From: Arcobacter sp.
GTDB lineage: Bacteria; Campylobacterota; Campylobacteria; Campylobacterales; Arcobacteraceae
Direction of reading: 5' to 3'
Length of the DNA stretch: 35,266 nt
NCBI GenBank assembly: GCA_002685075.1
Contig: NYWO01000056.1
Coordinates: 1 to 35,266 of the forward strand
Shown: positions 1,543 through 19,971 of the stretch, piece by piece
How the letters are laid out: each line of letters opens with the position of its first letter
Numbering within the stretch: position 1 is the first letter of the stretch
Notes under the pieces: model-generated
What the model was told of the DNA's origin: nothing
Databases searched by the model: none
What the model saw: the letters and a program-made list of their open reading frames with translations, nothing else
Translations under genes and position numbers: made by a program

Positions 1543-3360
1543 ATGAGAGACATTAGAAATATTGCAGTTATTGCGCACGTTGACCATGGTAAAACAACAC
1601 TTGTTGATGAATTATTAAAACAATCAGGAACTTTTTCTTCGCACCAAGAAGTAGATGAAAGAGTTATGGATAGTAATGATATTGAAAAAGAAAGAGGAAT
1701 TACAATTCTTTCTAAGAATACTGCTATTGATTATGAAGGTGTAAGAATTAACATTATTGACACTCCAGGCCATGCTGACTTTGGTGGAGAAGTTGAGAGA
1801 GTTCTTAAGATGGTTGACTCAGTATTATTACTAGTTGATGCTCAAGAAGGTACTATGCCTCAAACTAAATTCGTTGTTAAAAAAGCATTACAATTAGGTC
1901 ATAGACCAATTGTTGTTATTAACAAAATTGATAAGCCAGGTGCTGATGCAGATAGAGTTGTTGATGAAGTATTTGACCTGTTTGACCAAATGGGTGCAAC
2001 AGAAGAACAATTAGAATTCCCAGTTGTTTATGCAGCAGCAAGAGATGGTTATGCAAAACTTGACCTAGAAGAGCCTAATGAAAATTTAATCCCATTATTT
2101 ACAACTATTTTAAATGAAGTTCCAAAGCCAAAAGGTTCTGATGAAAATGGTCTTCAATTACAAGTATTTACACTTGACTATGACAACTTCATTGGAAAAA
2201 TTGGTATTGCTAGAATCTTCAACGGTACTATTTCTATGGGCGAAACAGTAACTTTAGTTAAAGCTGATGGTGAAAGAATCAAAGGTAGAGTTACTAAACT
2301 TATTGGATTCAAAGGTGTTGATAGATTTGATATCCAAACTGCTGGTACTGGTGATATTGTTGCTGTTGCTGGTTTTGAAACAATTGATGTTGGTGATTCA
2401 CTTTGTGATCCTACTAACCCAATGCCATTAGATCCAATGCATATTGAAGAGCCTACATTATCTGTTACTTTTGCAGTAAATGATTCTCCATTAGCAGGAA
2501 CTGAAGGTAAATATGTAACTTCTAACAAAATTGATGAAAGACTAGTTGCTGAAATGAATACTAATATTGCTATGAATTATGAGCAAATTGGTGAAGGTAA
2601 ATTCAAAGTTAACGGTAGAGGTGAATTACAAATTTGTATCCTTGCTGAAAACATGAGAAGAGAAGGTTTTGAGTTCTCTATTGGTAGACCAGAAGTAATT
2701 ACTAAAGAAGAAAATGGTGTAACATTAGAGCCATTTGAGCATTTAGTAATTGATACACCTGATGAGTTCTCTGGAGCAATTATTGAGAAGTTAGGAAAAA
2801 GAAAAGCTAATATGACAAACATGGTACCAATGGGTTCTGGTTATACAAGGTTAGAGTTTGAAATTCCAGCAAGAGGATTAATCGGTATTAGAACTGAGTT
2901 CTTAACTGAAACTAAAGGTGAGGGTGTTATGAATCACTCATTCTTAGAATTTAGACCTCACTCAGGTGTTGTTGAGTCTAGAAAATATGGAGCATTAGTT
3001 TCTATGGAAAATGGTGAAGCTGTTGGTTATTCAATCTTCAACTTACAAGATAGAGGGATTATGTACATTAAACCTCAAGATAAAGTTTATAACGGAATGG
3101 TTGTTGGTCAACATGCAAAAGCAAATGACTTAGATATCAATCCTATTAAAGCTAAGCAACAATCGAATGTTAGATCTTCTGGTGCAGATGAAGCCATTAA
3201 GTTAGTTCCACCAAGAGTTATGTCTTTAGAAAATGCATTAGAGTGGATTGAAGAAGATGAGCTTGTTGAAGTAACTCCTGTTTCTATTAGAGTTAGAAAA
3301 AGAGAGCTTGACCCAACAGCTAGAAAAAGAACAGCAAAGAAAGCAAAATTCGCTGAATAA
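1543..3360 (+). CDS. typA: ribosome-associated GTPase TypA/BipA
   Basis: 605 residues, full length for TypA/BipA, a translational GTPase that binds the ribosome and supports 50S assembly and growth under stress or cold. All G motifs are visible: [10 protein letters not shown] at 11-20 (P-loop), RGITI at 51-55, DTPGH at 73-77 and NKID at 127-130. EF-G-like domains II, III and V and the TypA-specific C-terminal domain follow; the C-terminus ends in a basic tail rich in Arg and Lys. The ATG follows an AAAGAG site. It is a single gene with its own promoter and a strong terminator. Confidence 0.98.
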
Positions 3361-3382: not shown

Positions 3383-3417
3383 AAAAGGATGAGCTTTTTA
3401 GCTCATCCTTTTTTTTT
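3383..3417 (+). terminator. rho-independent terminator of typA
   Basis: Perfect 9-bp stem GGATGAGCT (3387-3395) with AGCTCATCC (3400-3408), TTTT loop, extended by four A-T pairs and running into nine T residues (3409-3417). It sits 22 bases after the typA stop. Confidence 0.95.
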
Positions 3418-3500
3418 ACAAAATTTTTAGACAAAAGGGTTTATATGTCCGATATGAAGGTATTTAGGATTAGACAAAATTTAATAAATATAAAAAAATA

Positions 3501-3537
3501 ATAGGAGAATTTTTTCTCCTATAAAAAGGAGAAAAAA
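3501..3537 (+). promoter_or_regulatory. two mutually exclusive hairpins over a ribosome binding site
   Basis: Hairpin 1 pairs ATAGGAGAA (3501-3509) with TTCTCCTAT (3514-3522) around a TTTT loop: 9 perfect pairs. Hairpin 2 pairs TTTTTTCTCCT (3510-3520) with AGGAGAAAAAA (3527-3537) around a 6-base loop: 11 perfect pairs, covering the ribosome binding site and the first base of the start codon of the small ORF at 3537. The TTCTCCT segment is shared, so both cannot form at once: hairpin 1 frees the start site and hairpin 2 hides it. This layout is seen directly; a switch function is inference. Confidence 0.6.
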
Positions 3538-3620
3538 TGGAAAATATTAAAGATTATATAATAGTAATTACAATTGAATTTATCACAGTATTTACTAGCT
3601 TTATATTTATTAGTAATTAG
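3537..3620 (+). CDS. 27-residue hydrophobic small protein (possible membrane peptide)
   Basis: ATG at 3537 follows a strong AAAAAGGAG site by five bases. The product starts MENIKDYI and is then almost wholly hydrophobic and beta-branched (Ile, Val, Phe, Thr) from residue 8 to 25, enough for one membrane span, with a TAG stop at 3618. It stands alone between the typA terminator and the 3' end of the convergent AraC-type gene. I do not recognise it. A short toxic or regulatory membrane peptide would fit the occluded start site, but a chance ORF in AT-rich DNA cannot be excluded. Confidence 0.45.
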   Translation: MENIKDYIIVITIEFITVFTSFIFISN

Positions 3621-3632
3621 ACTTATTATAAA

Positions 3633-4514
3633 TTATGAAAATCTAATAGGCAAATAATAATTTGCTTTAAACTGTGAACTATTATCAAAGAAATCATTCT
3701 TCTCAAACTTTATGTATGAGGGAATGGTAGTAGCTTCATAACCACTATTTGGTAACCAATAGTGATATACCCATTGAATGAACTTTAAAATATCCTCATA
3801 CTTACCTTCAAAAGGAAACTTTGCACATAAACCATCATACAAATTAAAAAATGGTAAATTACTATTTTCAACAATATCTGCTTTATCTACCATAATTGCA
3901 GCCACATAATGACAATCTTCAGCTTTTGTAATAATAGGATTATCATGGTAAATACCAACTTGAGAATAGTTTATGATATTATTTGTATAAACCCAAGCTT
4001 TTAACTTTTGCCATGTTTGTCTAGCATGTGTTCCTAAACCTTTTTCTCTAATATAATAAGCTACTTTTTTTTCTATTTTAACAATTTGTGCTTCTATTAG
4101 AGAAAAGTCTTTTTTAATAAGACTTAATGAAGAATTAGAGTTTATTATTTTGTCAGAGAATTCTTTATATCCACCTTTTCTCCATTGCTTTGGTGTTTGA
4201 TTAAACCTTTGTTTAAAAGCTCGTAGAAATGATGTTTGAGAGCTATATCCACACATCGATGCAATTTTACTAATAGTTGAACCTTGATTAGTAATTAATA
4301 AATTGGATGCTTTTTGTAATCTAATTGATTTAATTGTTTCATATATATTTTCACCCATTTGTTCTTTAAAAATTCTATGAAAGTGAAACTTACTTACTTT
4401 AAATTCAATTGCCATTGCAGATATATTTATATCTGTATCGATGTAAGTATTTATATAATTTACCATCTCATTGGCTATTTTACAGTGTTTTAATGATGTT
4501 TCTTTCTTATGCAT
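3633..4514 (-). CDS. AraC-family transcriptional regulator with GyrI-like effector domain
   Basis: 293 residues. The N-terminal third (about residues 10-112) is an AraC/XylS DNA-binding domain with both helix-turn-helix units: FKVSKFHFHRIFKE near 42 and the signature KIASMCGYSSQTSFLRAFKQ near 83. The remainder (about 135-293) looks like a GyrI/Rob-type effector-binding domain, found in regulators that sense drugs or small hydrophobic ligands. The ATG has GGAT upstream. It is divergent from an EamA exporter with 135 bases between the starts, which suggests it controls that gene and itself. The ligand is unknown. Confidence 0.9.
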   Translation of the reverse strand: MHKKETSLKHCKIANEMVNYINTYIDTDINISAMAIEFKVSKFHFHRIFKEQMGENIYETIKSIRLQKASNLLITNQGSTISKIASMCGYSSQTSFLRAFKQRFNQTPKQWRKGGYKEFSDKIINSNSSLSLIKKDFSLIEAQIVKIEKKVAYYIREKGLGTHARQTWQKLKAWVYTNNIINYSQVGIYHDNPIITKAEDCHYVAAIMVDKADIVENSNLPFFNLYDGLCAKFPFEGKYEDILKFIQWVYHYWLPNSGYEATTIPSYIKFEKNDFFDNSSQFKANYYLPIRFS

Positions 4515-18812: not shown

Positions 18813-19088
18813 TTAATAAACATCATCATGTGTTCCAATATCAACTAAGATTATTTCACCATCTCTAATAATAAAATCAATAATAATTCTATATTCCATA
18901 TTTATAGAAATTGAATAAAACTCTGCTAATCGTCCTTTTAGTTTATGAATTCTTAGGCTTGGGTGATAAGGGTCTTGTTCTAATATAAATAAACATTTTG
19001 AATACCTATCCAACATATTTGGATGTTTTTTAAAAAACTTTTTTAGTTTCTTTTTATACTCATCACTTATTAGTAGTTTATAACTCAT
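18813..19088 (-). CDS. RelE/ParE-family toxin (YafQ/StbE-like)
   Basis: 91 residues. The start SYKLLISDEYKKKLKKFFKKHP, the middle HPSLRIHKLKGRLAEFYSIS and the ending YRIIIDFIIRDGEIILVDIGTHDDVY are typical of RelE-superfamily toxins, small endoribonucleases that usually cut mRNA on the ribosome. The start overlaps the antitoxin stop by 11 bases, the normal translational coupling of a type II module. Intact length and conserved His near the C-terminus suggest it is functional. Confidence 0.88.
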   Translation of the reverse strand: MSYKLLISDEYKKKLKKFFKKHPNMLDRYSKCLFILEQDPYHPSLRIHKLKGRLAEFYSISINMEYRIIIDFIIRDGEIILVDIGTHDDVY

Positions 19089-19332
19089 TTTTTAGTTCTT
19101 CAATATGCTCTCTGGCACTTTGCGTTTTATAATTACCTTTTTCAATATCTTGCATCGTTTTTAAGTATGCTAAATCTAGTTCATTTGCTCTTAATTCTTT
19201 ATATCTTTCAATATCAATAACAACAAATTTATTTTTTCCTCTAACATTTATAACTAATTCATCAAATTTATCAAGAAGCGTTGCAAATATTGAAACACCT
19301 TTTGTTTTTACTTCATTTGCATTAATTACCAT
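19078..19332 (-). CDS. Phd/YefM-family antitoxin
   Basis: 84 residues. VINANEVKTKGVSIFATLLDKFDELVINVRGKNKFVVIDIERYKEL is the Phd/YefM N-terminal DNA-binding fold; the C-terminal helical part (about 55-84) would wrap and neutralise the RelE-type toxin encoded just downstream. The ATG follows AAGGAT by about 6 bases. It is driven by a perfect consensus promoter with a palindrome in the spacer, fitting autorepression by the toxin-antitoxin complex. Confidence 0.85.
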   Translation of the reverse strand: MVINANEVKTKGVSIFATLLDKFDELVINVRGKNKFVVIDIERYKELRANELDLAYLKTMQDIEKGNYKTQSAREHIEELKNEL

Positions 19333-19362
19333 TATCGTATCCTTAATAGTACTTTTAAGAGT

Positions 19363-19391
19363 ATTATAGTTTAAATACTTAAACTTGTCAA
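19363..19391 (-). promoter_or_regulatory. consensus promoter and operator of toxin-antitoxin pair 1
   Basis: On the minus strand TTGACA (19386-19391), a 17-base spacer and TATAAT (19363-19368) are all perfect. The spacer is almost entirely a palindrome: AGTTTAA (19368-19374) and TTAAACT (19379-19385) with a 4-base centre. A protein bound there would block polymerase directly. A second imperfect palindrome (TACTTTTAAGAGTA, about 19350-19363) covers the transcription start area. Confidence 0.85.
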
Positions 19392-19405
19392 CTATTGTAT
19401 ATTTT

Positions 19406-19439
19406 ACAAAAGGATAGATATGAATACTTTATCATCTTT
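19406..19439 (+). repeat. 34-bp direct repeat, copy 2
   Basis: Identical to 18619-18652. Here the seven-codon antitoxin start (MNTLSSF) runs directly into the GGGGACA motif and stops, giving only a 17-codon remnant. Relative to copy 1, the codons for the entire DNA-binding part are absent. Confidence 0.9.
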
Positions 19440-19440
19440 C

Positions 19441-19467
19441 AAATTCCGGGGACACGGTACTAATTAT
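19441..19467 (+). repeat. GGGGACA repeat motif, copy 2
   Basis: AAATTCCGGGGACACGGTAC followed by TAATTAT, homologous to 18773-18800. Its end overlaps the stop codon of the second toxin gene on the other strand. Confidence 0.7.
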
Positions 19468-19754
19468 CTATAAACATCTTTTCTATGAGAAACTCTTAAA
19501 ACCAAAATCACTAGTTTGTTATTAATTTTTTCATAAATAACTCTATATGTTCTAAGTCTTAATCTATAAAGACCTTTAAATTCACCTTTTAAAGCTTTTA
19601 TTTTACTTACTTTGATTAACTCTTTTTCATATTCTTCATCAAAATTATTGATAAAACTTTCCAATTCATCTAAAATAAAATTTCTTGTAGATTTATCTAA
19701 AGATAAAATATCCTTAGAAGCCTTTTTATCAATATCTAAACTATACTGACTCAT
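19464..19754 (-). CDS. RelE/ParE-family toxin 2
   Basis: 96 residues. SQYSLDIDKKASKDILSLDKSTRNFILDEL followed by IKALKGEFKGLYRLRLRTYRVIYEK and LVILVLRVSHRKDVYR is a classic RelE-type ribonuclease toxin, including the basic RLRxYRVIY strand and the SHRKDVYR end with catalytic-type His/Arg residues. The start overlaps the antitoxin stop by 14 bases. It is distinct in sequence from toxin 1. Confidence 0.92.
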   Translation of the reverse strand: MSQYSLDIDKKASKDILSLDKSTRNFILDELESFINNFDEEYEKELIKVSKIKALKGEFKGLYRLRLRTYRVIYEKINNKLVILVLRVSHRKDVYR

Positions 19755-19971
19755 TAGATAATTTTCTCATTTGGCTTAAACTTATAGTTTCATTTTTTTC
19801 CATACTTCTTTTCTTTGCAATTTGTAAATCTAAATGGTCAAAATAAAATTCTAATGCTTGACTAACTAAAGCACTTTTATTTTGATTTAAATCTTCTGCA
19901 AATTGAGTAACTTCATCTGCTAAGTTTTGTGGTACTGAAATCAACATCTTTTTATTTTTAGTTGTTATCAT
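19741..19971 (-). CDS. ribbon-helix-helix antitoxin of pair 2
   Basis: 76 residues. KMLISVPQNLADEVTQFAEDLNQNKSALVSQALEFYFDHL is a MetJ/Arc-type ribbon-helix-helix (beta strand then two helices), dimerising to bind DNA. The remaining 25 residues should contact the toxin. AAAGGA lies 7 bases upstream of the ATG. A perfect 18-bp palindrome lies 27-44 bases upstream. Confidence 0.85.
   Translation of the reverse strand: MITTKNKKMLISVPQNLADEVTQFAEDLNQNKSALVSQALEFYFDHLDLQIAKKRSMEKNETISLSQMRKLSNESV

Follow-up and report, generated by a model that had tools for sequence, protein, structure and literature searches.

Downstream of typA (bipA) in a Poseidonibacter genome, we found a compact element made up of a short upstream open reading frame (uORF), two mutually exclusive RNA hairpins and an ORF for a 27-residue membrane peptide. 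We read this element, with about an even chance of being right, as an ermB-like, ribosome-gated translation attenuator for the small membrane peptide. Coordinates refer to the window, the whole 35,266-nt stretch of DNA analysed here, in which the typA ORF occupies 1543-3360 and its intrinsic terminator (3383-3412, plus strand) lies directly 5' of the element.

The peptide ORF (3537-3620, plus strand) starts with the ATG at 3537, ends with TAG at 3618-3620 and encodes MENIKDYIIVITIEFITVFTSFIFISN. Its substitution pattern marks it as a genuine gene kept by purifying selection: pN/pS is 0.22 in frame, and the two other frames give 0.88 and 1.20. This conservation argues that a small product is indeed translated here, as the preliminary description of this DNA had supposed. 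The description of that product as nearly pure hydrophobic needs revision, since the N-terminus of the peptide is polar, D, Y/E and T are conserved, and there is a single membrane segment. It belongs to a family of unannotated 24-39 aa membrane peptides with the consensus M-x-N-I-N-T-N-K-K-D-Y followed by one membrane segment, the N-terminal part being incomplete in the window copy; the maximal 19-residue mean hydropathy was 1.8-2.3 in four members. Of 10 genomes of the genus, 9 have the peptide at the same site by DNA and protein searches, which also located it in other Arcobacteraceae, and a profile search of 104 Arcobacteraceae genomes matched strongly in several genera, bearing out the expectation that the ORF would be conserved in relatives. 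A search of 298 genomes drawn from the class yielded no convincing match beyond Arcobacteraceae, just weak partial ones, and neither the element nor the peptide matched a curated model in Pfam, NCBIfam or Rfam. By these searches the family appears to be previously undescribed and confined to Arcobacteraceae. A phage origin was also considered and rejected, as viral contigs contained no relative.

The family occupies two chromosomal homes, one behind typA (38 loci, with typA 5' of the element at all 38) and one directly behind hsp20 (15 loci: L048, L079, L081, L103, L109-L111, L114-L120 and L122), where the peptide is 31-39 aa long and likewise unannotated. In several genomes typA is followed by a peptide gene, then by hsp20 and then by a second peptide gene. 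Of 10 genomes of the genus, only one has an hsp20 of this kind, and the incomplete genome from which the window comes yielded the typA-side copy of the peptide alone. Given the neighbourhood of hsp20 and typA, the peptide's role is probably stress-related. At seven loci (L062, L070, L073, L074, L076, L105 and L108) typA lies about 400-700 nt from the element, apparently with another short gene between them.

The RNA upstream of the peptide can adopt two folds. As the preliminary description had noted, three segments, AGGAGAA (3503-3509), TTCTCCT (3514-3520) and AGGAGAA (3527-3533), follow one another ahead of the start codon. They lie within arm 1 (ATAGGAGAA, 3501-3509), arm 2 (3509-3522) and arm 3 (3527-3538), all on the plus strand, the last of which contains the ribosome binding site AGGAGA and the AU of the AUG. 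Hairpin H1 pairs arm 1 with nucleotides 3514-3522 of arm 2 (ATAGGAGAA/TTCTCCTAT, 9 bp, 3501-3522) and leaves the start site free, exactly as proposed. Hairpin H2 pairs nucleotides 3509-3520 of arm 2 with arm 3 (ATTTTTTCTCCT/AGGAGAAAAAAT, 3509-3538). The start-occluding hairpin proposed earlier is therefore present and is predicted to mask the ribosome site, but it comprises 12 bp rather than 11 and takes in both the A and the U of the AUG instead of the A alone. Arm 2 is common to both hairpins, which makes them mutually exclusive. In folding calculations both structures outperformed dinucleotide-shuffled sequence: the leader 3495-3560 folds to H2 (-15.3 kcal/mol, z -3.6; none of 200 shuffles was as good), and a transcript ending at 3525 folds to H1 (-11.7 kcal/mol, z -4.8). 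The preference for H1 in the shorter RNA suggests that the nascent transcript would form H1 first.

Conservation strongly supports the two-state switch envisaged in the preliminary description. Both hairpins, with arm 2 shared, form at 38 of 38 typA-side loci, a recurrence that excludes chance, and in most of them the energies are similar (H1 -9.7 to -18.2 kcal/mol, H2 -5.6 to -16.0 kcal/mol). Base pairs peculiar to H1, and others peculiar to H2, vary on both sides while pairing remains near complete. Of 37 distinct leaders, 33 have A-U and 4 have G-C as the H1-only pair at +6 (37/37 paired), and the H2-only pair at -5 is U-A in 27, A-U in 5 and G-C in 1 (35/37 paired). Since the pairing register was picked for each sequence, which favours pairing, the weight of these counts rests on the changes on both sides. 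Pairs were counted by script in a structural register because the MAFFT alignment misplaced arms (for example in G086, G093, G100 and G101). The retention of compensating pairs in relatives, on which the switch had been staked beforehand, is evident at the typA-side loci. Behind hsp20, 10 of 15 loci keep the three-arm plan directly 3' of the hsp20 stop with unrelated arm sequences, such as AAGAAGAGA / TCTCTTCTT / GGAAGAGA in G017; the other five have no hairpins, and there the ribosome site or start of the peptide adjoins the hsp20 stop. When a collection covering 84,980 species was scanned for the motif, 15 stretches emerged, 12 of them in Arcobacteraceae or with fitting titles. Similar three-arm motifs, possibly arising by chance, were seen on the minus strand of a Nitrospirota contig, ahead of a gene for a thioredoxin-like protein (L132, 4023-4063), and of a Terriglobia contig (L126, 4731-4774).

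A further component, absent from the preliminary description, is the uORF (3445-3501, plus strand), which encodes MSDMKVFRIRQNLINIKK behind the SD-like sequence AAAAGGG (3433-3439) and whose stop codon (TAA, 3499-3501) abuts arm 1 and overlaps its base. At 35 of 38 typA-side loci we identified a uORF of at least 8 codons, preceded by an SD-like 4-mer and with its stop 1-6 nt 5' of AGGAG; the uORFs of the remaining three narrowly miss these thresholds. Shuffled upstream DNA gave 1.75 such uORFs (sd 1.3, maximum 5 in 100 rounds), a figure that takes no account of relatedness among the loci, and moving the anchor by at least 12 nt gave 0-5. The coding status of the uORF is a prediction from its SD, start and stop position, and the agreement among loci partly reflects shared ancestry. 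Several types of uORF (MSDDM-, MTDC-, MIHIDF-, MLKNVNF-, MNINTNF- and MKEDVPS-) are seemingly unrelated in sequence, and a pN/pS of 1.9 indicates that the product is not what is kept. A conserved uORF peptide was rejected as a general rule on the strength of this ratio, despite an MSDD(M) N-terminus that recurs in uORFs of several genera. The uORF thus appears to be kept for its translation and not for its product. At hsp20-side loci the hsp20 stop itself occupies the position of the uORF stop and, by eye, it also abuts H1 at the G089 locus. That unrelated uORFs and hsp20 genes all terminate at the same position suggests that the stop position itself is under selection. After the typA terminator, the window continues with a T-run and then an A/T-rich stretch (3400-3445), and TATGTCTAAAAA-like sequence recurs in several other genera; the element's promoter may lie in this shared stretch.

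From this arrangement we infer transcription of the element, the direction of the switch, its signal and the role of the peptide, as follows. The mRNA would carry, in order, the short uORF, arms 1, 2 and 3 and the peptide ORF, with H1 leaving the ribosome site of the peptide open and H2 closing it together with the AUG. A terminating ribosome covers about 12 nt past the stop codon. The stop lies 13-27 nt (median 17) from the core of arm 2, so a ribosome terminating at the uORF or hsp20 stop would mask arm 1 and spare the core, whereupon arm 2 would pair with arm 3 and the peptide would be off. If the upstream frame, uORF or hsp20, is not translated to its end during RNA synthesis, owing to stress, ribosome shortage or stalling, H1 would form first and the peptide would be made, at least transiently. 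In computed folds with a ribosome footprint blocked at the stop, the ribosome site was less open, at 0.03 instead of 0.16 for typA-side loci and at 0.25 instead of 0.54 for hsp20-side loci. Several observations count against the attenuator: the typA terminator lies only 32 nt from the uORF, the uORF's pN/pS of 1.9 leaves its coding status to the SD, start and stop position, five hsp20-side loci have no hairpins, and H2 wins at equilibrium in most typA-side loci. In the window, openness is 0.01 with or without the ribosome and H2 is favoured either way. Because H2 prevails at equilibrium in the window and most close relatives, any on state must be kinetic and set during transcription.

We describe the element as working like a translation attenuator because its layout matches that of ermB and resembles that of toiL, and because a type I antisense RNA is unsupported. 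In ermBL-ermB, a leader ORF precedes hairpins 1 and 2, which have an element in common and cannot coexist; the start codon is blocked by hairpin 2 and becomes exposed when hairpin 1 forms (PMC11264731). Two features of the ermB/ermC type are present here, namely a uORF with its own predicted ribosome site (35/38) and exclusive hairpins that share a segment, one of them masking the start. The differences make it a variant of this kind: the regulated product would be a tiny membrane peptide, whereas that of ermB is a methyltransferase; the uORF stop lies at the base of H1; the uORF peptide is not conserved; and hsp20 can stand in for the uORF. The toiL uORF of the E. coli topAI-yjhQ locus likewise lies upstream of a structured ribosome site, reading the state of translation and altering structure at that site (PMC12121999). 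Unlike our element, toiL has a uORF that is itself predicted to base-pair with the ribosome site further along the RNA, and the genes that follow it encode a type II toxin-antitoxin system (PMC12121999). The suggestion of a regulatory leader made earlier therefore holds in part: a leader exists, but as the separate uORF, and the 27-residue peptide would be the regulated product and not the leader.

A somewhat unlikely alternative is that coupling runs in reverse, such that ribosomes finishing the uORF or hsp20 open H2 or re-initiate, and upstream translation turns the peptide on. The five hairpin-free hsp20-side loci, which place the start or ribosome site of the peptide at the hsp20 stop as in ordinary coupling, fit this reading, as does the dominance of H2 at typA-side equilibrium, which would need opening. 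Where hairpins are present, however, about 37-43 nt separate the hsp20 stop from the start of the peptide, and a ribosome at that stop reaches arm 1 but not the H2 core; moreover, masking arm 1 favours H2 in the computed folds.

We consider it improbable that the element is an RNA thermometer in which heat melts H2, the peptide partners Hsp20 in heat shock and H1 is an accessory fold. The association with hsp20 and an A/U-rich hairpin that masks the SD would suit such a device, and mean predicted openness at typA-side loci, 0.07 at 10 °C, reaches 0.32 at 55 °C. No steep opening of the ribosome site was found within the physiological range, the typA-side mean moving from 0.07 (10 °C) through 0.13 (30 °C) to 0.21 (45 °C), and most typA-side sites are near shut at 45 °C (0.03 in the window). 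Nor does a thermometer account for arm 1 or for the conserved position of the uORF stop.

Similarly unlikely is a type I toxin-antitoxin system of the AapA/IsoA kind, one of two readings that the preliminary description called possible, in which mRNA folding and an antisense RNA made in cis would keep a toxic membrane peptide silent. The small hydrophobic peptide with its membrane segment is typical of type I toxins, and in aapA/IsoA of Helicobacter pylori, a member of the same phylum, SD-masking metastable hairpins form during transcription ahead of a small peptide gene, as shown for aapA3 (PMC6733600). The window ORF is also flanked on the minus strand by a sigma70-like promoter (10/12, 3625-3653) and by H1 read on that strand, whose T-rich tail makes it terminator-like (3501-3522). 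When a conserved minus-strand promoter and terminator for an antisense RNA were sought in relatives, the promoter recurred at that place only in the closest one (shared by G000 and G003), and other loci scored about like shuffled sequence; the antitoxin RNA was rejected on this basis. In contrast to aapA/IsoA, the element has a uORF and a fixed chromosomal place by typA and hsp20, including a second home directly behind hsp20, and purifying selection on the peptide speaks further against the toxin reading. The terminator-like sequence, whose tail is not kept in all relatives, possibly serves the convergent araC-type gene (3633-4514). The T-rich tail that H1 has on the minus strand in many loci would fit a hairpin that is chiefly a bidirectional terminator or mRNA stabiliser, with H2 a by-product of the chance resemblance of arm 1 to a ribosome site. 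We consider this reading very improbable: G006, G002, G099 and several hsp20-side loci have a weak tail, the plus strand lacks a T-run after H1, and the H2-only pairs have compensatory changes of their own.

Returning to the ribosome-gated attenuator, we tentatively propose, as a possibility that falls well short of an even chance, that the three-arm switch arose repeatedly, from sequences unrelated to one another, at the stop codon of the ORF that happened to precede it, be it one of several unrelated uORFs or hsp20, and that the peptide reports failed upstream translation as a translation-stress sensor tied to Hsp20. The work adds an undescribed, conserved membrane-peptide family to Arcobacteraceae. 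If the mechanism holds, it would place an erm-like attenuator outside resistance genes and indicate that a full-length hsp20 can act as the leader. As sequence varies while stop position and pairing are retained, the loci constitute a natural mutant series, well suited to studying how a ribosome at a stop codon decides between RNA folds. Elsewhere in the window (18813-19971), two adjacent gene pairs resemble, by eye, type II toxin-antitoxin modules, with RelE/ParE-like products beside small partner proteins.
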